64,000 bases of DNA, taken from Bryum argenteum. Taxonomy: Eukaryota > Streptophyta > Bryopsida > Bryales > Bryaceae. The translations under genes and the position numbers were made by a program. This document shows, one piece after another, positions 1 to 42,334 of this stretch. Each line of letters begins with the position of its first letter. Within the stretch, counting starts at the first letter, position 1. Location of the stretch: the NCBI GenBank assembly GCA_037043015.1, contig CM073328.1, forward strand, positions 12,807,495 to 12,871,494, in the 5' to 3' direction. The notes under the pieces are model-generated. The model was not told the origin of the DNA. It did not search any database and saw only the letters and a list, made by a program, of their open reading frames with translations.

Positions 1-1
1 A

Positions 2-181
2 AATACCATTCACTCTGAACCATCCTCTGCCTCGAAGAAAAACAAGTTTCAAGACCAAGCATTACATTACTTTGGAAAAATGGTGGATAGTGGAGTAGCA
101 ATATTTGAATACTTTGCTAGAACTAATGAGTTACTTCAAAAGGTAGACCAGCAGATGGATCGCCTTATTGAAAAACTCTAG
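2..181 (+). CDS. C-terminal fragment of Myb/SANT-like protein of a PIF/Harbinger element
   Basis: An open frame enters from the left edge and ends at TAG 179-181, giving 59 residues. It is basic and serine-rich at first, then strongly helical (FEYFARTNELL, then QQMDRLIEKL). Plant PIF/Harbinger elements encode a Myb/SANT-like partner protein with this kind of helical C-terminus beside the transposase. The transposase remnant at 304-1,002 lies on the opposite strand only 120 bp away, so the two genes are convergent, as expected for such an element. The DNA-binding part is outside the window. The assignment rests mainly on context; it could also be the end of an unrelated trihelix or Myb-like host protein. 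Confidence 0.45.
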   Translation, partial: NTIHSEPSSASKKNKFQDQALHYFGKMVDSGVAIFEYFARTNELLQKVDQQMDRLIEKL

Positions 182-303
182 ATTTCAACATTGTTTTCTA
201 TGCTATCATCTTCTGGAAATACTACTTTATTTTTCCTCTTCAACTGCTCCTTGTAGTACACATCCGCTAGCATCAGATGAAATTCAGTAGCTTCTTTCAA
301 CAA

Positions 304-1002
304 TTATTTTGTTCTCTCATCTCTCTCTCCTCTTGTTTCAGTAATGCTTTCTTCTACCTCACAAGTCATGTCCATTTCACTTGTGTCAATGTATTCAATT
401 TGTACTACTTCTCTTTGTATGTTCCTCATCTCACTTATGCCGAATTCTAACACATGGGATAAATCCACATCCCTAAAATCACCAAAAGTTTGTAGAGATG
501 CTTTCTTCAACTCCTCTTCGGCACTTTCAGCCCAATTCATGTCAAATTCATCTCCATGAATTATGCACAAGTTGTGAAGGCAAAGGCAAGGGGTTACCAT
601 ACCCGGGATACTTCGAAGTGGCATATCGATTTTCTTCAATAGAATCCTCCACCTCCCCTTCAACATTCCAAATGCACGTTCGACCGCCATTCTTGTACTT
701 GATTAAATGACTTTCCAGTGTTGTTTCTCCCTAGAAAAACCGGCCTTCTCTCCTTTGAATGGTGAATAGAACCATAGACGCATAGGATAGGCGGCATCTC
801 CAATAAGCTTATATGGTAAAAATGTTCCACTCATAGTTCTCTTCCCAATTTCTGATTTTTGAAATAGAATCCAATCATGTATACTACCGGCCCACCCAAA
901 ATCATAATCCCAAAATTTGCATTGAGAATCCACTACACCTTGAAGTAAAACCAAATAAAATTCCTTCCTACAATAATATAAAGCCGGATATATATCAAAA
1001 GG
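304..1002 (-). pseudogene. PIF/Harbinger transposase fragment (DDE_Tnp_4 type)
   Basis: The minus strand encodes the C-terminal half of a Harbinger nuclease. Visible motifs are GVVDSQCKFWDYDFGW followed by SIHD (first and second acidic positions), KLIGDAAYP (third region) and RMAVERAFGMLKGRWRIL (the final acidic residue in VERAFG). The frame continues upstream of the first TTG/ATG-like start as far as about 1,002, reading ...YPALYYCRKEFYLVLLQ, and then meets a stop. An in-frame TAA at 703-705 separates the GDAAYP block from the VERAFG block, and the N-terminal half with the HTH is missing. It is therefore a truncated, inactive copy. It ends with an acidic tail at 304. Its partner gene fragment lies at 2-181. 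The family match is strong; exact element ends were not found. Confidence 0.85.
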
Positions 1003-1192
1003 TCAAAAACCATTAAAAAATGTGTATTATTATGGAAATTTTGGTGATATTACAGAAATCATGTGATACTACGGAGTACATGTGTGATATTATTAAACAT
1101 GCCATTTTTTACGCATAAATACTTCTGAACTTTACTTCAAAAATATGCTTGTAAAATGGCACGTTTGCACAATCTGCCACTTTAGCTCCGCT

Positions 1193-1220
1193 AAAATGGC
1201 ACATGGAATAGTGCCATTTT
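1193..1220. repeat. 10-bp perfect hairpin inside a short dispersed repeat
   Basis: AAAATGGCAC at 1193-1202 pairs perfectly with GTGCCATTTT at 1211-1220. The surrounding block (about 1,150-1,250) resembles about 3,880-3,970, which has the related hairpin at 3916-3943 and the same downstream text (AAYGRAATTGARGTTT). These are probably two old copies of one short element. No target duplication was identified. Confidence 0.5.
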
Positions 1221-1412
1221 AACGGAATTGAGGTTTTGTTCAAATAATACCTACTAACAACCCTTCCAAAACACTCTACAATATCATGAGCACTGCTGTA
1301 TAATTTGTCATGAACATTTTTCAACGTAACCTATAGTAGATTGAAGCATTGACTAGCATGCTATGGTTGAAAGAAGGAATCTAGGGTTGCATGATACACG
1401 TCCCCCATTTCG

Positions 1413-1505
1413 ATAAATGGGATGTTAGTGTGAACAACCGCATAAATGGGATGTTCTAAAGTGTGAACAATCGCACAAATGGGATGTTAGTGTGAACAAC
1501 CGCTA
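1413..1505. repeat. Short tandem repeat, about 30-bp unit, three copies
   Basis: The block AAATGGGATGTTAGTGTG, followed by AACAACCGC, occurs three times with small indels. It has no coding signature. Confidence 0.7.
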
Positions 1506-4093
1506 CACAAATGTTTCTTCCTTGCCTATGAAATGAAAAAAGCCATGGCTCATCTCCTTGTCAAGCTTACGCTCGCCTTCCAATCCGTTACCAGCCGACC
1601 ATGCCTGTAGGTAGTGCGTGGGCTTACCACCTACAAAATATACAATGATAACACATTTTGCATAGTATTCCATTTCTTTTTTTATTTTTCCTTCTACAAG
1701 AGTAAACGTCGTTATTGTCTTGCTAAGAAGGAAGTCAACACTGCTCTAGAACAGATTGTCATGAAGAGCCTCTCTTGGAGCCGCCTTGGTTGGATAAAGA
1801 TCTGTGAACCTCCCGAGGTAAGCTATAGCCGCAACAACTTTAATTTGTTTCCACTCCGTCATTTTTTGCCATCTCCCCGGCTCTAGCTTGAACCACATGA
1901 CTTTAGGGAGTAATAGAGACATGGAAAAATCTTTGAGTAAGGGTGTCTACGTAGTTGATCGATGAGTTCCCCACGATGGAAGAAAGATCAAAATGCTTGT
2001 AACCGGATGGTACAGTCGCAAATCTAGGTGTAGTGGATCTGAGAATATAGCCCCCTTAAATATGTCCGAAAACGCCTCAATCAAAGCCTACAGGAACCAA
2101 AGGCACACTAAATGTACTAGACTTCAACTATAGGTAGAGGACAAAAGATCTCAGGAGGAATTATGACCAAGCAAGAGATGTCTAGATCTGCACTTGAGAT
2201 TGAAGTTCGAAAGCGTGACTACGCAGGTGGAAGAGGGTCCGATGTGAAGCCAACACGCTTTCCAAGTATTAGCTTGACTGTCATCTCCTAGCCGTGAGAT
2301 TACGACGACTTTTAATCTCATTTGAAAACTAAGCAACTGGACAACCTTGAGGCAACCTTGCTTTCTTGAGTAGCTACTCCTCACCACGGCTTTCCACTCC
2401 CATACATCAACTCACGTCGAGAACTTAGCTTCTCTCACACTGATTTTGGTGATCATTACGAGCTTAATATCCTTAAGCCACAAAGTCGTTGGTCCAACAT
2501 CACCATGAACTTTGATCTGAATCGCCGCTAGATCTCGAACTAAGTTGGGTTAACTTTCCTAAAAAAGTGGATCCACATTTTCGAGTTGATCTCTCTTTAC
2601 CAACGTAAATCATTTGTAGAGCAGTCGGTAAGGGACCACCTCAAAGGGACCACCTCAAGCTAGATTCTATTGATCCACACCACTCTTCGGAGACAATGCG
2701 TGTGTATGACGCCACAATCTTCTAATGCGGCCTTTCACAACAAAGTACAGAGCTCCATTACCTCCCAAAGCTCTCATGTCTCCAATTTTAGATTTTCATG
2801 AAATTCTACTTCGATAGTTGGCTACATATGCCTTATAGCAATACAATAGTTGGCTGGGCATCCCTAATAGCAAGGTGGTATCTAGCTAGACATGACTCAT
2901 GTTTGTAGTTTACTTTATCCCAAACTAAGGCTTTATAATTCTATTTTTGGGGTGATTTGAAGACCGGAATCGCACAAGTGTGTCTTAGGCACAAAGGAGT
3001 CTCATTGCTAGTAGAGGGAGATATGTAGTAAAGGTTTTCTCTATGGTGTTAGGAGATGAATCCCAGAATAAGGTCATCCTCACTTTGTATGGCAGGTACA
3101 TGATCGGCAAAACTTGTGGCATTTTGGCATGTTAGAGAGCTCCATGTCTCCATTTTCCTTGAGAGCTCCTCTTGCTGTGATATAATAAGTACAGAAGCAA
3201 GGTGGGAGCACAACATTTGGATCCCAAAGCATAAGAGAGACATAAGTTTGGAGTTGTCACAAAGAATAAGCAAGTGGAGGCACTTGTAACCTTGTCAAAC
3301 GGTTGTTGCTTGGAGGATGTATTTGACATAAGTATATTCGATCGATTGGCTAAAGCTCGTCTCTCTAATTCTTAAACTCTTACAAGATCCAGTTTGGGCA
3401 TTTAGGGTTTTGAGATCCCTACTTTGAACATTATGGTGTTAAAGTTTATTAGTTTTAACAAATCGTTTTGTAACACATAGTTTAAATTAACTATAAGATA
3501 TTACTAGTGGATTCACAATGCAATTTGCAGATTAAAAACTCGAAGGCTTTAAAAGTGCAAGGAGTCAATTTTGGTAATCGTAGCAAAATCTTAACCACAA
3601 ACTTATAGGGTTCAAATAAAGCCTTTGCTAGAAGTAACATCAAGTCCGTAAAGTGGCATTAAGTGCCAAAATGGTGCGTTTTGTAATGTTCATGAAGCGG
3701 AAAATAACATAGATTTTTAAACCTTTTTGTTGGTTTGTGGCCTCCGAATGGTCGTTGAGAAATGTTTATCATGTTATAGAATCAATTATTATTATAGAGA
3801 ACATGCAGAATATTGAAAATGTGTCATTTTAGAAACACAATTTGATATGCTTCTCCAATGGCAGGCTGGCCAAAATGGCACATCTAGTGCACCAAAATGG
3901 CAGAATTAGTGCACCAAAATGGTACATGAAATGACGCCATTTTAATGAAATTGAAGTTTAAGTTAAGTCGCAACAAACAAAGCAGAAACTTCAACGTATA
4001 TAGGTTGAGCATGCTCCACGACCTTAAGGTCAAACTCTTAAGTTTCATGTTGTGTTCGTTCATACAAGGACGATCTCCCAACATTGTAATTCA
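1506..4093. other. Region without recognisable genes
   Basis: Only short open frames without family features were seen here on either strand. The 3,880-3,970 part repeats the 1,150-1,250 block. A stretch around 2,040-3,420 has slightly richer codon texture but no motif I can name; it may be old transposon debris. Confidence 0.5.
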
Positions 4094-4208
4094 AGACACC
4101 ACAAGCCTTGGCTTCGTAGGTAGGGCTCATAGCCCCGTGGTTGTGGGTTGTATACTCCTTGTTGTCGTTGTTTTCACCACCACAATCCACCCAACAATAG
4201 TAGAGGTC
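4094..4208 (+). mobile_element. SINE fragment (tRNA-like head only)
   Basis: This stretch matches the first ~115 bp of the full SINE at 12,405-12,762: CACCACAAGCCTTGGCTT, a diverged box B region, then CCACCCAACAATAGTAG. It is the most diverged copy in the window and lacks the 3' half. It lies 280 bp outside the piggyBac left end. Confidence 0.7.
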
Positions 4209-4841
4209 TAATATGCCTCATTATACAGCATACATTGAAGACCTTTTGGGATAATACCATGCCGTGGGGTAATTCTATGGGAAATGACATTATAGGCAGA
4301 TTTTCCTTTAAGTTAAAGAAGTAATTGAAAATAATACATTGATTGGTTCAAAAATAAACATATATTATCAATAAAACTGATTCAAGGAATCATTTACTAA
4401 TTAGTTGGCCATAAGTTTGGCTACCTTGGCACACTACTGACCCACCAAAGTGAGCAATAACCTTGCCTCTCCAATTGAAAGAAACTTAACCCTTAAAGGC
4501 GCCAGTCAACCCGAGGGGCTGTTTCCAGAACTTTAGGGGGGCCTACTGACGTCATGCATGCACCGAATATTCTTGCTTTGGTACCGTTGTGGTCAGGACC
4601 ACCTCCTCCGTCGAAAACAATTATCATCACTTCGATCGCTCTTGTATCGATTTTGCAATTGCAATCCCAAGCTATTCGGAGGCCCTCGCTCATGTTCGAG
4701 CTCCTGCCCGAGTGCGGCCATCGCCATTCTCCGTTTGGTTTCGAAGGAGCCAACCTCCTTTTCAATCACCGGTGTCAGAACGTAGTTGTATTTTTAGGTT
4801 GCAGGAGACAAACCGTTTCTTTGGACTTTTGTGCAACGGTC

Positions 4842-6496: not shown

Positions 6497-9268
6497 TTGC
6501 AGGTCAATGCTGGGGCTACATCGTCCGGTGTGCAAGCAAAGGATCGATCAGAGGCTTTGATCCCGGTGCAATCCTCATTGCTAGTGCTCTTGATGCCGGC
6601 GAGTGCTAGCGGAGGTCGCAGCAGAGGTTCAGTAATTCGTAGCAGAGGTGCCGCTCCGAGGTCATCCCCTGTTTCGGCTTTGCCATCGTTGGCACCAATG
6701 TTGCAGCACGTGCATTCGTCACCAACGTTGCAGCAGGTGCATTCGTCCGTTGTTGGAGGGGTTACATTCATCGGACTTCCTGGGGCTCTACACCCTGTCC
6801 AACAAGTTGGAAGCCCTGGTGGCCAGCAGGTGCTAGGCCCAATCACACATGATGGACCCCCTCATCAGCAAGTTTGCCAGAGGTTACAATTGGGCGTAGG
6901 AGGGGAGTTGACATTGGAGCCAGTAAGTAAAAGAAAACGCCAATCAAAATAAAAAATTGCTCTATTCACTGGTGAGTCCTCTAATCCTCATGTGGATCAT
7001 AATATGATTATGTTTGATGAGATGAGAAATTCTCAACTCGAGAATACCAATGCATTTATCGGTGGTTTGCAGGATGAATTTGAAGAAGGTGAGGGCATGG
7101 AATCTCTCCTCCAAGCGCTCGGGAACGAAGAAATTTGTAGCTTAGATAGTAATCAAGAGATGGATTTTGAGAAAATTTGGGCATCTTCTTCTTTGACAAG
7201 AAGAAATGTTACACTTCGTTCCGATTCTAATATAAACTTACATGTACCTTTATTTGACTTGGGTTGTTGTGGTCGGTCTTGTGTGGTCCCGAGATGTGAA
7301 ATGCCTAATCTTATAATTCATGAAGATAGTGAAGCTAATTGTTTGGAATTTTTTTGGGGCACAGTAACTAATGAATTTTATGATCCCATGTTAGCTATAG
7401 ACATGTTCACTATTTTGTTGTATGAACCCTGGGGGTCTTTTGATGTGCCCGAAGCGGTGGTAAGGTTTGTAGATGACAATGACGAATTTGCTAGTGTAAG
7501 TGAAATTCAATTATGGGGTCAACGTTTAAAAACCCCTAGTCCATCGCATAGCTCAAGTAGTAATAGTGACTTTTCTTATTTACGGGGGCAATCGAATTCC
7601 AACTTATCTAATGATATGGATAAATTAGAATCTCTTGAATTGACCCCTAACTCTAAAAAATGGTTTATTCAATCGTCTCAACCAACACAAGAATTAGGTT
7701 TAGATTGCGATTTGACATTTGAAGAATTTAGTAAATTATCTATTGGTGATAGATTTCAAGAAGGAATGTGGAATAATCCATCCAAACAACTCCCTCCTAT
7801 TATTTGGTTGGGGGAAAATCAAGGTTTAAAAGACCCTTTGTCAAATTGTCTCAGCCCGTTGGATTTTTTTTTGCTTTTTTGGCCCAATTCTATTCTTGTG
7901 AAAATTGTTAGGATGACTAATTTGTATGCGGCATTTAATTTAAGTGAAGGTAGGACACGTGGGGGAAGTAAGTGGGTTAGATTGACTGTAAAGGAATTAT
8001 TGAAGTTCTTTGGAGTTTTAATGTTTATGGGCATAAAAAAATTGCCATGTGTTAGATTACATTGGACAAAAAAATTCATAGACTTATTTAAAACCGACAC
8101 TATTAGGAAACATATGACTAGAAAACGTTTTGAGGATATTCTAAGATGTATACACTTAGTAGATAACAAAGATGTAAGTGTTGATAAAAATAGCCCACAA
8201 TATAATAAATTGGCAAAAACCGAATGGTTAGTAGTGGAACATAACAAATTATGTAGTGATTATTATTTTCCTGAGCCAAATCTAGGTGTTGATGAGATGA
8301 TGATTAAGTATACGGAAAAATATGCTCCAATTAAACAATATATGAAGGCTAAGCCCACGAAATATGGTGTGAAAATTTGGTGTCTTGCAAATTGTGATTC
8401 TAAGTATGTGCAGAAAATAGAGATTTATTGTGGAGCATGTGACTCTCAAGAAGAAGGGAATGTTGGTGGGAGAACGGTTTTGAATCTCATGAAAAGTTTA
8501 GAAGGTAAGGGTCACATTGTCACTTGTGACAATTTTTTTACTTCTCCCATATTATTTTGGCAATTGTTGGAGCGTGGTATATTTGCTACGGGAACTTGCA
8601 GGACGAATCGCATTGGTTGGCCTCAAGCCCTCACCAATACACCGACATCGGGAACCCGAGGGCAATTGTGGTATCGGGTGCATGCTAGTGGCAAAATGTG
8701 CGCTGTCACATGGTTTGATAATAAACCGGTATGTTTACTTTCAACTGCTTGTAGTCCTATTGATTCCACAAAGTCTTTGTTTATTAGCCGTTGGCATGTA
8801 GGGGGTCACATCCAAATTCCCGCTTCTCCCGTTTTATTGCACTACCAACAACATATGCGTGGAGTAGATGTCCATGATCAATTGCGTGGTTATTATAGTT
8901 TGCAAAGACGTGATCATAAATGGTGGCACAAATTTTTTTCACATCCTAGATCAATCGTTTTTGAATGCATTTATTTTGTATAAAATGGCTATGGTGCTTA
9001 GGAAAATAAAACCAATATCACATTTAGAGTTTTATGTTCAAGTTGCTAACGCCGTGACTTACGAGCCAGAAAAGATGCTAACATGTATGCCAAGGGCCTC
9101 GGTGCCAAATCCAGGCAAGTTACACTATACCATGGCATGGTCCGGACATGAAACCCGTCGCCGACGTCATTGCGTTGTATGTAGGAAAGTTCAACAATTT
9201 TATTGCCCACTTGAAATGTGGCAATTTGTATGGGAAATTGTTTCATTATTCATCATTCAAAATATTGA
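6497..9268 (+). pseudogene. piggyBac transposase (catalytic DDD intact, frame broken)
   Basis: The main frame 6,992-8,983 (663 codons from GTG; first ATG 7,004) contains the DDE_Tnp_1_7 core. The catalytic aspartates are in LGVDEMMIKY (GAT 8,291), VTCDNFFTS (GAC 8,528) and MRGVDVHDQ (GAT 8,867), spaced 79 and 113 residues apart, close to the family pattern. In the same frame upstream, 6,497-6,949 is open and ends SKRKRQSK (nuclear-localisation-like) before a single in-frame TAA at 6,950-6,952, so the ancestral protein was probably longer. A one-base indel in the T7 run at 8,933-8,939 shifts the frame, and coding continues as ILDQSFLNAFILYKMAM. A second lesion near 9,211 breaks the C-terminal cysteine-rich zinc-binding domain, which otherwise reads to TGA 9,266-9,268. 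Known role: cut-and-paste transposition at TTAA. Three lesions make this copy non-functional as written; some may be assembly errors. Confidence 0.9.
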
Positions 9269-24865: not shown

Positions 24866-25866
24866 CTCGATGCTTCAAACTCTAATTGCTACTGCTCTGT
24901 GATTCTCAAAACACCTGAAAAGCGATCGATCGATCGTGAAGGTCGTGAACTCTCGGATCCCTTGGAGTGCTATTGAGAATTTCGTCGTCTACGAGGAGTT
25001 AGGGCATGTATGAACGATTCAAAACTTTGAGTGTGATTTTAAAATTTGTACACGTTAAGCGAGGGTCTCATTTTGGGTCAAATTGGGTAAGTATTTTGGG
25101 TTTCTTCGTTGCAAATTTATGAAGAAAGGGTAACTTGGATGAGGTACTTGAGTTTCTATTTAAAAATATATTTAACCCTAAAGTTTCAAGAGGCCCATTT
25201 GGCTTTGGTTAAGCCTCTACTTACTATTATTAGATCATATGGAGTTGAAACCTTTTGTAAGTTGTAGAGCTTTTGCATAGCTTTCCAAAAGTTATCTCAT
25301 GCTCCAAAATTCCTCATACCTTAAGAGATATTTGCAATCAAAGTTTGAAAACAATATTTGAAACTTGCCCAAACCGGAGTATATTGGAATGCTCATTCAT
25401 CCTCAAAATCTACCCAAATTTGATTAAATTGTAGAAACATCATAAATTCACCAAAATTGAGATTTCACTCTTTTTCAAGTTTTGTTTTTTGTGCATGTAA
25501 AAAAGGTAGTAAGGCATGATCTTACCATTTGGGTTATATTTGATAATTAAAATTTCATGCATTTTGCACACTTGAACCTAAATTTTGTGCACTTAACTTT
25601 GGTTATATGGTTATATGTATTTCACATTATTTGAATTTATCACCAACACAAAAGTGGATAGGTCATTGAACTTGGCACCGAACAAACTCAAAACATGTAA
25701 CATTAGAACAAGTAGAAGAAGACAACGTGGACGATCGTCCATTTATTTCGTCGATTTAGGGTTGAGCTAAGTGGAAGAAGCCAAGACTCAACAAGGAGCA
25801 AGAAGGCAATGGCGATGGCGAGAAGCCACTGATCACTGAATCAGCAATCACAGTAGCAGCGGAGCG
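24866..25866. other. Shared upstream region of PSMG4 and prefoldin 3
   Basis: No gene was seen. The sequence is AT-rich in the middle (25,000-25,650). The stretch before 25,867 probably holds the prefoldin 5' UTR. Confidence 0.5.
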
Positions 25867-26421
25867 ATGGCGTCGACATCAGAGAGGCGCGGAATCCCCG
25901 CAGCAGCATTCGTGAAAGACGTACAAGCTTTCCTAGTCCAGTACGACGGCAATCCAGCGACATGCCTAACAGCCCTCCAGGAGAAGCTTCAACAGTACAA
26001 GATGGCGGAGATGAAGCTCCTGGGGCAAAAACGCGATCTCTTGGCCAAGATCCCCGACATGCGCAAGTGTCTCCAAATCGTGGACCTCATGCTGGAAAAG
26101 AAAGAGTCGATGAAGATGGACTTCGAGGTCGCGGAGGGTATATACGCGCAGGCGGAGTTTCAGAACACGGAAACAGTGTGCTTGTGGCTTGGCGCCAATG
26201 TCATGCTGGAGTATGGATGCGAGGAGGCTCAAGACTTGCTTACTCGAAACTTGGACACTGCGAATAAGAGCTTGAAGTCGATCGTGGAGGATCTGCACTT
26301 CTTGCGTGATCAGATGACTATTACGGAGGTTACGATCGCTCGTGTGTATAACTGGGACGTGCATCAACGCCGCAAGCAACGCGCTATCAGACCTGAGTCT
26401 GCTGAAGTTGCAGCTGCTTAG
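25867..26421 (+). CDS. PFD3: Prefoldin subunit 3 (VHL-binding protein 1 family)
   Basis: A single uninterrupted exon gives 184 residues with normal length for the family. The order is: RRGIPAAAFVKDVQAFL (conserved N-terminus), an N-terminal coiled coil (LTALQEKLQQYKMAEMKLL), KIPDMRKCLQIVDLM, a beta-hairpin core (YAQAEFQNTETVCLWLGANV), then the C-terminal coiled coil to YNWDVHQRRK. The alpha-class prefoldin subunit is part of the hexamer that hands unfolded actin and tubulin to the CCT chaperonin. The chosen ATG is the first in frame with the conserved N-terminus. The GC-richer codon use contrasts with the flanking repeats. Confidence 0.97.
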   Translation: MASTSERRGIPAAAFVKDVQAFLVQYDGNPATCLTALQEKLQQYKMAEMKLLGQKRDLLAKIPDMRKCLQIVDLMLEKKESMKMDFEVAEGIYAQAEFQNTETVCLWLGANVMLEYGCEEAQDLLTRNLDTANKSLKSIVEDLHFLRDQMTITEVTIARVYNWDVHQRRKQRAIRPESAEVAAA

Positions 26422-33709: not shown

Positions 33710-33743
<34 letters not shown>

Positions 33744-34745
33744 AAGAAGAAGAAGAAGAAGAAGAAGAAGAAGAAGAAGAAGAAGAAGAAGAAGAAGAGA
33801 GAAGAAGAAGAAGAAGAAGAAGAAGAAGAAGAAGAAGAAGAAGAAGAAGAAGAAGAAGAAGAAGAAGAAGAAGAAGAAGAAGAAGAAGAAGAAGAAGAAG
33901 AAGAAGAAGAAGAAGAAGAAGAAGAAGAAGAAGAAGAAGAAGAAGAAGAAGAAGAAGAAGAAGAAGAAGAAGAAGAAGAAGAAGAAGAAGAAGAAGAAGA
34001 AGAAGAAGAAGAAGAAGAAGAAGAAGAAGAAGAAGAAGAAGAAGAAGAAGAAGAAGAAGAAGAAGAAGAAGAAGAAGAAGAAGAAGAAGAAGAAGAAGAA
34101 GAAGAAAGAAGAAGAAGAAGAAGAAGAAGAAGAAGAAGAAGAAGAAGAAGAAGAAGAAGAAGAAGAAGAAGAAGAAGAAGAAGAAGAAGAAGAAGAAGAA
34201 GAAGAAGAAGAAGAAGAAGAAGAAGAAGAAGAAGAAGAAGAAGAAGAAGAAGAAGAAGAAGAAGAAGAAGAAGAAGAAGAAGAAGAAGAAGAAGAAAGAA
34301 GAAGAAGAAGAAGAAGAAGAAGAAGAAGAAGAAGAAGAAGAAGAAGAAGAAGAAGAAGAAGAAGAAGAAGAAGAAGAAGAAGAAGAAGAAGAAGAAGAAG
34401 AAGAAGAAGAAGAAAAAAAAAAAAGGAACCATAACAGAGCACATGGAACTAGGAACAATGGAATGAGGGAACGGAGGACATGCTACAAATCTTAAAGAAC
34501 ACAAGGAACTAAAAAGACAAGAACGGAGGACATGCTGTAAATCTTTAACAACATGGAGAATGAGAAGCAAGAAACTTGCTTATTCATTACATATCCTATA
34601 ATTTCAACATCAACAAAAACCTTCAATTTCGTTTTTTTTTTTTTTAGTACCTAGGTCTTGATTTTTATACATTTTATAAATTTCAATTTCACCTTTTTGA
34701 TGTACGTGTTTGGAGGACACATGTAAGGACTTGTTCTTTATAAAA
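31690..34745. repeat. GGGAAC-rich repeat family, three copies, one inverted
   Basis: Copies are at about 31,690-32,335 (minus), 32,405-33,130 (plus) and 33,131-34,745 (plus). Shared blocks are GTCATGTAYACATGGTATGA, AAGAGTTTCCATAAG, GATTGTTATTAAG, then a run of imperfect GGGAACNNAAGATNGGAAC units, and finally ACCTAGGTC and GTAAGGACTTGT. Copies two and three are head to tail and both start TCTYTATATATAA. That start resembles a Helitron 5' end, but no CTRR 3' end was found. No protein is encoded. Confidence 0.7.
33715..34424 (+). repeat. GAA microsatellite, about 700 bp
   Basis: GAA repeats are interrupted near 33,798, 34,106 and 34,295 by small phase changes and end in a short A run. All three frames on the minus strand are open (poly-Leu, -Ser, -Phe); none is a gene. 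It is an expansion inside the third GGGAAC-rich repeat. True length is probably variable or uncertain. Confidence 0.98.
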
Positions 34746-34772
34746 GTTCTCATATGTAGATAATTTGACTAC

Positions 34773-37700
34773 AACAAGGGTTTTGTTAAAAGTGCCCATT
34801 GAAATGTGCACTATTTTTTGGGATTATTTTTTAATATTTTAATCACAAATTTTGGTGTATAAAAGCACTAATATCAAATTTCGTTGGGGTCTTTTGAAAT
34901 ATTATTGATTGAAAATAAAATCAAATGAAGCTATGTATTATATATATATGTCATATTTATGATGTGCTTCGAGTTCATAATTAAGAATTTTTTGGATAAT
35001 AAATCAAATATACTGCATAATATCATTAAATTTGTGCATTTTAAATAATTGTTTGGAAGTTTCATAGAAAATGGAACACTTTTACCTTATTCGATCGAAA
35101 AAATATCTTATTGAGGCAATTTCAAACAAAAGAAGATAAAGAAAATGAATCATATTTACGTAATATATTCTTCAAATAAATTAACAAAAAAATACACCAT
35201 GATAGTATGATAGTAAAACACAGTAATGTATAATATACTCAAGTAATAAGTTACACGGTAACGCATTCTCTTACTCTCTATTATATCACTATGCTATAAT
35301 ATTAATATCAACAAAAGAAATATAGCCATACTAAGAGTCAACACATATTTATTTATTCTCTATTATATCACTATACTATAATATTAATATAATTAAAATA
35401 AATCTAACCATCCAAAGAGTCTAGACCCAAGCCTAGAGAAAATTGATCTTCGCGCACATCTGGATGTATCAATGCATTTTCTCCAAAATAGGTAGCTCCT
35501 TCTACAGTAGCATTTACTTCAAGTTCTTCTCCATGATTGAGTCCAAGACTTTGCTCAATGTATTTGTATCTGATAGGTTCTTCTGGATTTACAGAAGAGA
35601 TTGCCTCACGTTTGAAAAATTTCATGTTCCCATCAGTCCACAATTCAGCACCCTCGTTCCAAAAATATCCATCTTCATTTGCTTGAGCTGCTGCATCACT
35701 AGACCTCTGTTTCTTTTTTGAAGGACCACCCTCAAAAGTAGAAGCATATATTTTCTGTTTTTTTTTATAAATCGAGATTTTTCCTTACTTCGTCTTCTTT
35801 ATCACCATCACTGTCGTCATCGGAATCATCTTCATCATCTCCGGCATCATCTTCATCACTTTCATCCGAATCTTCTATAGATTTCTCTTTATACAACCAA
35901 AGTGGATTTTTATCGGGTAGAGCTTGTCTAACTTTGTCAACGTAACGCTCTTTCCATTTCTCAAGCCATACTTCCATGTCCAAATTTGATTCCATAAGAA
36001 TGAGTTGCTTAACTGTACCACATACATTTTCAATCAAATGCGAAAATCCCTCCATCACCAGCATCCAATCAGAAAAAAAGAAATGGCTGATCAACTCTTC
36101 GACAACTGCCGGGCAACGAGCAGTTCGATTCTTTGAGCACATACTCCAACCGTTAGATGGTTCAATATAATAGGACTGAATGGTTTGTGGGGCCGTCTTG
36201 TTTTTCGCAAAATTTTCTTCTAAATACGTATTAAGTGGATGTCGGAGAACCACAATATACTGCCCAATAAGAGAAAATTTGACAATGCATTTTGATCCAT
36301 CTTTAACTACTAAACCAGTAGTCTCCGATTGAGAACCAAAAATATATGTTTCGATGTGTACGAAATATTCGGGAACATTGTGCAAACCAATGACATTTTT
36401 AATTTGCTCCACATTCTCTCCAACAGGAAGCATAAAAATCACATTCCAACGTTGAACATCTCCCATCCATGATTCAATTTTCTTCATGATTGATGTGTAC
36501 TCTACCTCTGTCCAATAAGCATTTGTAGGTCTATAGCGACAATCAAAAACCTACAATGCACTTCTTCTAAAAGTACCACCATCACTTGTAAATATCGAAT
36601 CGCCAATTTTGACTTCAATAGAAAATCTCGATGCATTTGCCCCTTGATAATCAAAAAACATTTTCAAATTTCTCTCATGACTTCTAGGAATGACTTTTCC
36701 ATTGCAAAATAGTCCCAAACCGCTTTCAACAATAAGTTGATGATGATCAACCACGTTGCGCGGTATAAAATCAACATGCTTATGTTGTTTAACATGAGCT
36801 GTGTGGGGTTTGATATGACACCATCGCTTCAAAAACTCAACTCCTTTTGGAATGGCTTTAGCAAAATAATCTAATGCATCTTTTCCACCAAATTTCTCCA
36901 CACCGGTTTCTAACCAATTTTTTTTCTCACCCTTCGGATCAATATGTACCGATTCCAACCACTTAAATGTATTTTGAATGCCAAGTCGACGCTTTGCAAC
37001 TTCGCACCAATGGGCCAATTCGGGTTCACTCTTATTCCCGTCAAACCAAAGTGCTTGTTCTTTGTCTACCGAGTCCACTGTTAATTTTTTACAAAGCAAT
37101 ATATGTTCATTGGCTGTAAGACCCTGAAAATGACGTAGCCAACCAACAAACATACGTGGACGATGTACAACTGAATCTTTCACCTTCTTCCCCTTCTTTG
37201 ATGCAGTCAATCCAAGCTCTGCATTTTTATGTTTTTTTGACTTGAATATAAAACCATTGTCATATGCATCGCACATCTCTTTCAACGCTTGCCAACTATC
37301 ATCTGGAAGTGTTGCCATAATCGTGTAATCACGAAATTTTTCTCTCATTTGTATAATTGAGATTTTGCCATCTCCTACCTTTGTGCTTGTAATACTCGGC
37401 ATGGAACGTAAAAACTTCTTCCGATTCTCATCTTCGGCATTTGGTCGGCCAAGACTCTCCCATAGTATTCTAGCTTTCTCAAGCATTTCTCCCGTTGTAC
37501 TATGATATTTTCTCTCCGTTGTAATGTCATTTAACCTTGTTGATGAGAAAAGATACGTAATCTCGTTATCATACAACACAATAGTTGCCGGCCGTCGTGC
37601 AAATATTCTATTATAATCTTCTTGAGAAATCTTTTCAGCCAAAAGATCATTTTTGGCCAACACATTACAAGCATGTTGTACGTGTTGTCCATCAACAGGC

Positions 37701-39125
37701 TCCCATGTTATACGGTTGAAAAAACATTGTCTTTTCTCTTCCATAGAAGCTCCCGGCATGCTTTCCAAACACTCAACAAATAAATTCTTAGCTCTTGCAC
37801 CTTTGAATAGCTTAACATCATTGGGATTTCCTATTGGATCCTTGTAAAACATTGGTCTTAATGTAATCCATGAAGAGTCCACATTATGCCTCTCTCTCAA
37901 AGCTTTATAATTTTTTTTGCGTTTTCAACATTTAGAATACGTTGGTTTGTAAAACCATCGGTAGGAGCTCGAACATGTTTCATATCAACAGTAAATGAGA
38001 AATCTTTCCCATAAATATACCCTCCATCAATTTCCTCTTGAGTTGGAGGATTGAAAGACTCTTCTATAGAAGAATTAGCTTGAGAGGTAACTAATCTTTT
38101 TCTTTTACCTTTTGATTGTTGAGCAATTGGAGCCTGAGTAGGAGTTTGTAAATCCTCTACAGTCAATTCAAATTTGGTGTCTCTTTGAAAATGCAATGGT
38201 ACTTGAGAACACAATACAATTTGAAGTTGAGAATCAACAATGGCTTCACGTTCATAAGGAAACGATAACGCTCCACGCCATTCTGAATTTTAGAAGGCTC
38301 TTCAGGTTCTTCTACAACGCTCTCATTTGACAAAGTGTCAGAAGCTCTTGAATGAAAGCGTTCATAAGAGTTCATATATTCAACCATATGATCTTCTTGA
38401 ACCCGATTAAGACCTTGCGATACTTGAAGCATAAATGAACGAAGAGATTTTTGAGTCTCGTGAAGGTCATTCCACCATTTTACACCATGATTACTGTTTT
38501 GGGTATTAGAACTGAAAAAGAGTTAAAGATTCCATGTGGTGAAAAGTTTCATTTCGAATATCACCTTAGCCTCTTAGAATAGTTATTCTATATTTGTTGT
38601 ATATTTACCTTATATTTGAGAATTTATAAAATGCAATATTGATATATCATTTTGTTGAGTTCTCATGTGAATGGATCTTTTTTCATGACTAACAATTATT
38701 GTCATTATGTGTGTATCTAAATTCAAAACTTCAACAATTTTGTGCATAATTGAACTTGCATGTACATACCTCATTTTTTTCTTCTTGTAAGTGAAATACA
38801 TATATTTCAATTACTATATATAATTATATATTTATATTTATGATCATAGATGGATTCTTGGTAAAAGGAGCAATAAAGAGTTATAAGAAAATCCTAGCAA
38901 TGTTTATATTATTTTTATCAACTCAAACTTTTCATCAATTGCAATTGTAATTTCCTCAATAACAAAGCATAATAAACTTAAAATGTATCCTTATTTTTAA
39001 TTTTAATTTTTCTAACTAGTAGGATAGTTATAAGTGGTGAATTTTTCGTTGAAATTGATATGTTTCCAAAAAAACCTTATGTGCACTTTTACACATTGAA
39101 TTGCACTTTTAACGAAACCCTTGTT
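34773..39125 (-). mobile_element. Unclassified 4.35-kb DNA transposon, CTAC duplication
   Basis: The left end AACAAGGGTTTTGTTAAAAG and the right end CTTTTAACGAAACCCTTGTT are complementary at 22 of the 23 terminal positions (inverted repeats 34,773-34,795 and 39,103-39,125). A perfect 4-bp CTAC flanks each side (34,769-34,772 and 39,126-39,129). Subterminal GTGCAC motifs occur at both ends. The one long gene inside (35,404-38,515, minus) shows no DDE-type transposase motif I can identify. Superfamilies with 4-bp duplications include Sola, Ginger and Academ, but neither the ends nor the protein give me a match. The boundaries are well supported; the classification is open. Confidence 0.8.
35404..38515 (-). 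pseudogene. Large protein of the CTAC element (ParB-like PVDGQH motif, acidic tail)
   Basis: The coding region starts at a TTTTTCAG acceptor near 38,516 and runs leftwards for over 950 codons. Four breaks are seen: a frame change near 38,285, a one-base indel in the T8 run near 37,912, an in-frame TAG at 36,551-36,553, and a frame change in an A-run near 35,765. The longest piece (37,900-36,554) contains WEPVDGQHVQHAC (motif at 37,691), ARRPATIVLYDN and GRPNAEDENRKKF. This arrangement recalls ParB/DndB-type DGQH domains. The next piece has GDVQRWNVIFMLP and WMLVMEGFSHLIENVCG, then an acidic run (DESDEDDAGDDEDDSDD). The spacing vaguely recalls the motifs of ParB-methyltransferase fusions in phages, with catalytic residues replaced. 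This is inference; the protein may be the element's mobilisation enzyme or a passenger. Confidence 0.6.
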
Positions 39126-39835
39126 CTACACAATAGTGTACAAATATTGTGTCGCTTGACAAGAGTATTGTTTTGTATATAAATATTCAAACGATTTTGG
39201 ACTGATGGGCATTATAATTTTGTTTTAGTGACCTCATTTGATATTAGTTTCTATGATAAGCGTCAACAACTTGTTTCTTACCGTATGCATTATCAACAAG
39301 TTGATGGCTTGCAATTGCTACATCACTCGCTATTTTATTTTATTTACTAGGACATTTCAATACCTCATATGCCTATGATTTTGTTGGAGAGATAAGACAA
39401 TATCAAATCCTTGACCATTTTACTACAATTATATGACATCATTTCTTTTGTGCTCTTGATTATTGTGAAATTCAAACATGTCACTTTTATTATCAACACT
39501 AGCGGAGAACTCGTTGTACCAACGAGAATAGGTTTAATTCAAGTTCAGCTTTTAGCTAAAATCAATATTTACTCGTTCATTGTTCTCTCTTATTTTGAGA
39601 ATTGGTTTCTCATACTCTTGTTTTTTCATCCTCCACCTCTACTTGTCCCTCTCTTCTCATCTCCTTGCCTTCTCGTCCCTTTATCCTTGCTCCTTTTTAT
39701 TTTCTCTTGTCTCCTTATTCCTTATCTCCTTGTCCTTCTGTCTCTCTCTTTGTCCCTTCATTTGGTTCACATAAAAGACTAGACATGTGGACAAAAATCT
39801 ATTCATTCAATAGAATTTTCACGGGTTTTTAGCTA

Positions 39836-41283: not shown

Positions 41284-41355
41284 GGTCCCATAGTCCAGTG
41301 GTTACGACTTTGGACTTTGAATCCAAAAACCCGAGTTCGAATCTCGGTGGGACCT
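41284..41355 (+). tRNA. trnQ-UUG: tRNA-Gln (UUG anticodon)
   Basis: A 72-nt cloverleaf. The acceptor stem GGTCCCA pairs with TGGGACC, with discriminator T at 41,355. The D arm contains box A TAGTCCAGTGG. The anticodon arm TTGGA-CTTTGAA-TCCAA has anticodon TTG. The T arm has box B GAGTTCGAATCTC. It closely matches nuclear plant tRNA-Gln. No intron is present. It reads glutamine CAA codons. Confidence 0.96.
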
Positions 41356-41489: not shown

Positions 41490-42334
41490 TGAATCTTTTT
41501 GTGGTGGTTTTGCGGAAGCTCGCTAGCTGACATTGTAATACAGGAATGAAATTCATTGTAGGAAACCCAGATGTGGAGAATAATCAGGTGATCATTTGAT
41601 GTTTGGTGTTTCAGGACCTCGATGCTTAGTGAAGGTAGCGAGCGGCTGTGAGCTCCACAATGGTATGAAGCACTAGTTCCATCCAAACACATCAATATCG
41701 CTGAGAGTTGTTGTATCTTTGAGATGTATGAGCATATTTACAAAGCCAAAATTCCATGTTTGGAATCTCCCTGTGGTGGTTTTTGTGGAAGCTCTCTGGC
41801 TGACATTGTAATACAGTGATGAAATTCATTGTAGGAGACCCAGTTATGCATCAATATGTGGAGAATAATCAGGTGACCATTTGGTGTTTGGTGTGAGAGG
41901 ACCTCGATGCTCAATGAAGGTAGCGAGCGGCTGTGAGCTCCACAATGGTATGAAGCACTAGTTCCATCCAAACACATCAATATCGCTGAGAGTTGTTGTA
42001 TCTTTGAGATGTATGAGCATATTTACAAAGCCAAAATTCCATGTTTGGAATCTCCCTGTGGTGGTTTTTGTGGAAGCTCTCTGGCTGACATTGTAATACA
42101 GTGATGAAATTCATTGTAGGAGACCCAGTTATGCATCAATATGTGGAGAATAATCAGGTGACCATTTGGTGTTTGGTGTGAGAGGACCTCGATGCTCAAT
42201 GAAGGTAGCGAGCGGCTGTGAGCTCCACAATGGTATGAAACACTAGTTCCATTCAAACACATCAATATCGCTGAGAGTTGTTGTATCTTTGAGATGTATG
42301 AGTATATTTACAAAGCCAAAATTTCATGTTTGGC
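41490..42334. repeat. Tandem triplication, 285-bp unit
   Basis: Three consecutive copies start near 41,490, 41,762 and 42,047. Copies two and three are almost identical; copy one is shorter by about 13 bp and more diverged. Each holds a similar minus-strand frame of 74-80 codons starting MMCL. This follows from the duplication, has no family match, and is not called as a gene. Confidence 0.95.

Follow-up and report, generated by a model that had tools for sequence, protein, structure and literature searches.

Plant DNA transposons with two genes are represented by En/Spm (TnpA and TnpD) and MuDR (mudrA and mudrB), in which a transposase is accompanied by an accessory protein and derivatives with internal deletions are moved in trans. 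Other plant elements likewise have defective derivatives that arose by internal deletion with filler. As described in the cited passages, elements of another group, Sola, have DDD transposases, terminal inverted repeats (TIRs) and 4-bp target duplications, mostly measure 2-9 kb, with some exceeding 15 kb, and occur in the moss Physcomitrella while being apparently uncommon in flowering plants (PMC10741241, PMC9033089). The passage cited for Sola2 adds that these elements may hold a second protein gene, Fanzor1 (PMC3627910). Here we analyze an element in a 64,000-nucleotide stretch of the moss Bryum argenteum (contig CM073328.1, positions 12,807,495 to 12,871,494 of the forward strand), referred to as the window herein. 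We consider it very probable that this element, which is non-autonomous, derives by internal deletion from a cut-and-paste plant transposon with two genes, one encoding a DUF7869 protein that is likely the transposase and the other, ORF2, encoding an accessory protein.

The window element and its longer copies

The element spans 34773-39125 (4,353 bp) and lies between CTAC target-site duplications read at 34769-34772 and 39126-39129. Its TIRs, delimited by end comparison and a genome-wide end search, are 23 bp each and identical at 22 of 23 positions: AACAAGGGTTTTGTTAAAAGTGC on the left (34773-34795, plus strand) and, as the reverse complement, AACAAGGGTTTCGTTAAAAGTGC on the right (39103-39125, minus strand). 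Both the inverted ends and the perfect 4-bp flanking duplication had been claimed in the original prediction, which was made from the letters of the window, and our re-reading bore them out. The prediction had also proposed looking for other copies with these ends and for the length of their duplications. A genome search with the window TIR, allowing two mismatches or fewer, returned 63 matches, compared with none for a reversed-pattern control, and copies with the same boundaries were among those found. In all seven copies read at both ends, whose flanks are independent, we found an exact 4-bp duplication and no deviating length. Written in the orientation of each fetched locus, the duplications are CTAC in the window, TTGT in C2, ATAC in C1, AAAT in C4, CTAA in C7b, GTCA in C7a, and TTAT at a diverged copy on C3. 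C11, C3:22521846 and C1b each had a single matching end within the stretch examined.

When the whole genome was searched with the window element (40 of 86 candidates scored), 48 matches were obtained, and element positions 1-3713 and 3720-4361 proved to be separated by several kb in other copies. Where both ends are present, the copies measure 11,471 bp in C2 and 11,383 bp in C1 (alignment-delimited), 16.9 kb in C7a, 8.4 kb in C4 and 7.4 kb in C7b. Alignment of its positions 1-3709 and 3716-4353 to the two ends of the 11.4-kb copies identifies the window element as an internally deleted copy that is missing ∼7.1 kb relative to C2, with a deletion junction and short filler at 38481-38488. To the right of the junction, the segment at 38489-39102 (plus strand) aligns to the long copies as a transposase-side remnant, to which the DUF7869 gene contributes its extreme end and the rest is the terminal region of the element; the window copy has none of the remainder of that gene. 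Full elements measure ∼11.4-11.7 kb, with ∼23-bp TIRs (AACA...TTCRTTAAAAGTGC), a 4-bp target duplication and two head-to-head genes. A diverged element at C3:4168683-4180376 is 11,694 bp long and has a related TIR, the ends AACACTYGATTCRTTAAAAGTGCAC and TTAT duplications. We placed its boundary where the duplication appears, with AT-rich 4-bp matches also present at two other offsets, and this boundary is consistent with the AAC start at L041 and L043.

ORF2 occupies 35404-38480 on the minus strand of the window and encodes a DGQH protein with an acidic tail. Frame analysis showed it to be 5′-truncated, with its start missing, and broken by frameshifts near 38288, 37908 and 35766 and a TAG at 36551-36553. 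Where the original prediction had seen one long gene, the minus-strand frame was recovered, including PVDGQH and the acidic tail, but as a gene interrupted by three frameshifts and one stop. In C7a, both upstream breaks are read through in a single 851-aa frame. Because this frame runs unbroken across the region, the upstream splice acceptor that had been proposed is superfluous for the start of the window's 457-aa frame.

Several further arrangements of the ends were observed. C7a (L013/L014) exceeds the 11.4-kb copies by ∼5.5 kb, and several unrelated long frames lie between its two genes; the extra sequence is probably a nested insertion. Five pairs of ends lie 2.5-4.1 kb apart (C1:31326764-31329388, C1:36270058-36274101, C1:36512623-36515421, C8:865195-867727 and C11:2029304-2032668) and are probable short non-autonomous derivatives. 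Lastly, C1:30963378-30968008 (L004, L006, L012) holds three occurrences of one end, each with the same outer flank and in alternating orientation, which is an inverted segmental duplication or an assembly fold-back and not a set of separate insertions.

The DUF7869 gene and its pairing with ORF2

The long copies carry on their right a plus-strand gene whose product matches DUF7869 (Pfam PF25273). For the C7a protein, this match has an E value of 5.7e-55 and 186.3 bits, compared with a curated cut-off of 26, and covers profile positions 6-190 of 192. The motifs I(I/V)DGMDQNTT, QADNCGRENKN and VGHTxEDIDQ were found in seven of seven transposase sequences scanned. All seven come from this genome, and two differ at one residue, L043 in the first motif (G to V) and L018 in the second (G to R); the L018 piece stops inside the third. 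We interpret these three D motifs as the catalytic DDD triad of a transposase of the RNase H-like type, and the DUF7869 protein is the likely transposase of the element. In diverged families, the frame is unbroken over 986 aa and 1099 aa. The original prediction had entertained ORF2 as a sole, unrecognized transposase; we rejected this since the longer copies carry the DUF7869 gene with its D...D...D motifs, which the window copy has lost. A deleted copy can, in this way, make an accessory protein pass for a novel transposase.

A genome search with the ORF2 protein, in which 53 of 299 candidates were scored, returned 56 matches at identities down to ∼30%; one with the DUF7869 protein, in which 64 of 1712 were scored, returned 81. 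To count pairs, we used the 56 ORF2 matches and 66 of the 81 DUF7869 matches, leaving out 15 short C-terminal ones, and merged same-strand matches within 4 kb, which gave 47 ORF2 loci and 63 DUF7869 loci. A DUF7869 gene was present within 20 kb of 33 of the 47 ORF2 loci, and all 33 pairs were head to head (divergent). Random placement, with the extents of C5 and C10 guessed, yielded a mean of 0.6 pairs and a maximum of 6 over 1000 trials.

Ratios of nonsynonymous to synonymous substitution (dN/dS) were sought for 17 sequence pairs. Between families, two ORF2 pairs gave 0.18-0.26 and two transposase pairs 0.04-0.06, at dS values near saturation; six further between-family pairs were dS-saturated and gave no ratio. 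The seven within-family pairs ranged from 0.28 to 0.85, the top value belonging to C7b, a range that fits copies in partial decay. Between the C7a and C3:4168683 elements, dN was 0.28 for DUF7869 and 0.56 for ORF2. Because 33 of the 47 loci are head to head and, in the four between-family pairs that gave a ratio, dN falls far short of dS, we conclude that the pairing of ORF2 with DUF7869 is old. ORF2 is more likely to be an accessory gene than a chance passenger.

The DGQH protein and the proposed roles of the two genes

The DGQH core of ORF2 is encoded at 37682-37693 (minus strand) of the window. An alignment of 11 ORF2 rows showed the core to be WEP(V/C)DGQH. A TN.R segment and an LRP strand come before it, a hydrophobic strand and a conserved N come after it, and a block, LW.(F/V/I)D(C/Y)R, recurs further downstream. 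Across families, the core is among the most conserved blocks of the protein. The DGQH-type pattern was found in 15 of 17 stretches scanned, three of these being changed (DGQQ, DGKH and DG-stop-H), and was unmatched in L015 (NGQH) and L025; by copy, the altered cores are DGQQ in C7a, DGKH in C2, a stop in L036 and NGQH in C7b.

Judged by eye, ORF2 presents an N-x-R segment, LRP strand, DGQH, hydrophobic strand and N in an order that we take to be that of ParB/DGQHR (DndB-type) domains. It has, however, no significant profile match to ParB or DndB. Of the ParB-like protein that had been predicted, the conserved DGQH core and the segment order are retained and profile support is lacking, so that the possible ParB-likeness of ORF2 is a lead and not a result. 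ParB or DndB families were absent among the ORF2 hits in Pfam, NCBIfam and PADLOC, and the ParB_N profile found no match in this genome (1 candidate scored). Comparison of ORF2 with YbdM and six phage ParB-like proteins by hhalign gave a probability of 0.2% (E 0.34) and left the DGQH-type motifs unaligned. Single-sequence structure models had mean pLDDT values of 35.0 (window 457 aa) and 39.5, too low to use. A PDB profile search returned 56 matches to E 10, the best being RQC2 (1.9e-7), in or beside the acidic tail, and we take these matches as low-complexity. With the 11 ORF2 rows, the best Pfam match was Mpp10 (1.8e-4, one member only), which we tentatively put down to acidic sequence as well; PHROGs gave a best value of 0.022 with no named function, and PADLOC gave none. 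The methyltransferase-like segments of the original prediction did not hold up: the DPPY-type catalytic motif, [DNSH]PP[YFWH], occurred in none of the ten proteins scanned, several of them partial at the C-terminal region, and an N6/N4 DNA methyltransferase identity was rejected on this basis. Weak single-member matches to TRM13 (E 0.021) and RsmA (E 0.085) were not taken as evidence. ORF2 is defined here as a conserved partner protein that no curated family matched in these searches. Were it ParB-like, the transposition machinery of a eukaryote would have taken over a DNA-clamp or DNA-modification fold from bacteria; the literature searched held nothing joining a ParB domain, a transposase and a eukaryotic transposon.

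In the mechanism we propose, the DUF7869 protein, as a DDD-type (RNase H-like) enzyme, would cut at the TIRs, excise the element and insert it into target DNA by joining the ends across a 4-bp stagger. ORF2 would assist it through DNA binding or complex assembly via the DGQH (ParB/DGQHR-like) region, or through anti-silencing; a DNA-binding or assembly factor is the most likely role, with an anti-silencing factor as the alternative. Through the internal deletion with filler, the window copy has lost its transposase gene together with the 5′ portion of ORF2, and it would be movable only with proteins supplied by fuller copies. Several points weigh against this proposal. A PDB profile search with the DUF7869 protein found nothing, its transposase role being read from sequence, and the accessory role of ORF2 is one that we infer. 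Both genes are unbroken in none of the six copies read (window, C1, C2, C4, C7a and C7b), and given these broken genes the present activity of the family is putative. In addition, for 14 of the 47 ORF2 loci, the window copy included, the DUF7869 list drawn from 64 scored candidates of 1712 shows no gene within 20 kb. Lastly, the window deletion may postdate insertion because no other copy among the 48 genome matches aligns across the junction; the deletion possibly arose in place and the derivative possibly never moved.

The 14 unpaired loci would suit a captured host, bacterial or phage gene, carried as a passenger without a role in transposition, and Sola2 and other elements are described in the cited passage as capturing accessory genes (Fanzor1, PMC3627910). 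The paired loci argue otherwise, since they keep a single orientation down to ∼30% ORF2 identity, and between families dN stays well under dS in the pairs with a ratio. No relatives of ORF2 were found in phages (scan with one protein) or in viral contigs and prokaryote genomes (scans that reach close relatives only). The bacterial or phage passenger that had been suggested does not look like a stray gene in this genome, and we regard this explanation as improbable. We give still less credit to an exchange of roles, in which the DGQH protein would be the transposase, as a ParB-like nuclease, and DUF7869 the helper. ParB-like folds do include nucleases, and the conservation of the DGQH core would fit such a role. 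However, it is DUF7869 that has three conserved, spaced acidic motifs resembling the DDD transposase pattern and that evolves more slowly in the same two elements (dN 0.28 compared with 0.56), ParB_N is without a match in this genome (1 candidate scored), and the core is altered in C7a, C2, L036 and C7b, though these copies may be decaying. Lastly, the broken gene in the window could speak for a decayed host gene that inverted repeats flank by chance, but this artefact can be dismissed as it is contradicted by the end counts against the control, by the exact duplications in seven of seven copies and by the limits of the window-to-long-copy alignments, which fall at the TIR ends or at most 4 bp off.

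Neighboring features and comparison with known transposons

Elsewhere in the window, an AAG microsatellite of ∼233 copies (33714-34414) ends ∼350 bp left of the element, a Prefoldin subunit gene lies in one uninterrupted frame at 25840-26421 (plus strand; E 4.4e-27), and a tRNA gene at 41284-41355 precedes a 285-bp tandem repeat present in three copies at 41500-42333. Although piggyBac elements are uncommon in plants, a 676-aa open frame at 6953-8983 (plus strand) matches the piggyBac-type transposase domain DDE_Tnp_1_7 (E 6.4e-71). On contig C12 (114,600 bp), the whole RuBisCO large-subunit profile was matched by a 505-aa open frame, which shows the host to be photosynthetic. Both the rbcL sequence and the Prefoldin gene resemble those of the green lineage, probably of a streptophyte alga or a land plant that diverged early.

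The two-gene organization and the defective deletion derivatives are features shared with En/Spm and MuDR, whereas the protein families differ and the target duplications of those elements are 3 bp and 9 bp, compared with 4 bp here. Academ elements have a transposase with an XPG nuclease, and no XPG domain was found among the Pfam hits of ORF2 or the DUF7869 protein. We rejected Ginger, as there is no Gypsy-like integrase core and Pfam to E 10 gives only DUF7869 and a weak DUF2199, and piggyBac and Kolobok, as none of the seven duplications is TTAA. CACTA, hAT, MULE, PIF/Harbinger and Tc1/Mariner were rejected on the 4-bp duplications in seven of seven copies and the lack of any of their Pfam transposase domains. 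For CACTA, hAT and PIF/Harbinger, this comparison used the target-duplication lengths generally associated with them. Those for MULE and Tc1/Mariner are as given in the cited part of PMC10741241.

Likened by description only, the element fits Sola in its 4-bp duplications, TIRs, three DDD-like motifs and host, and we have not filed it there. It differs in that a partner of the ORF2 type does not appear in the Sola descriptions cited, and Fanzor1 is described with a different motif (PMC3627910). A broader and rather doubtful proposal is that DUF7869 elements form a plant group at the superfamily level, in which a DDD transposase would be permanently paired with a divergently transcribed ParB/DGQHR-like factor for transposition or anti-silencing. 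If so, ORF2 would have adapted a fold that serves DNA partition or DNA modification in bacteria to act as such a factor. The transposase-side protein resembles DUF7869 (PF25273) proteins by its profile match, and the literature searched made no mention of DUF7869. While the Pfam name states no function, the domain here sits inside a TIR element with 4-bp duplications and a recurrent partner gene, which gives DUF7869 a concrete home and a likely function.

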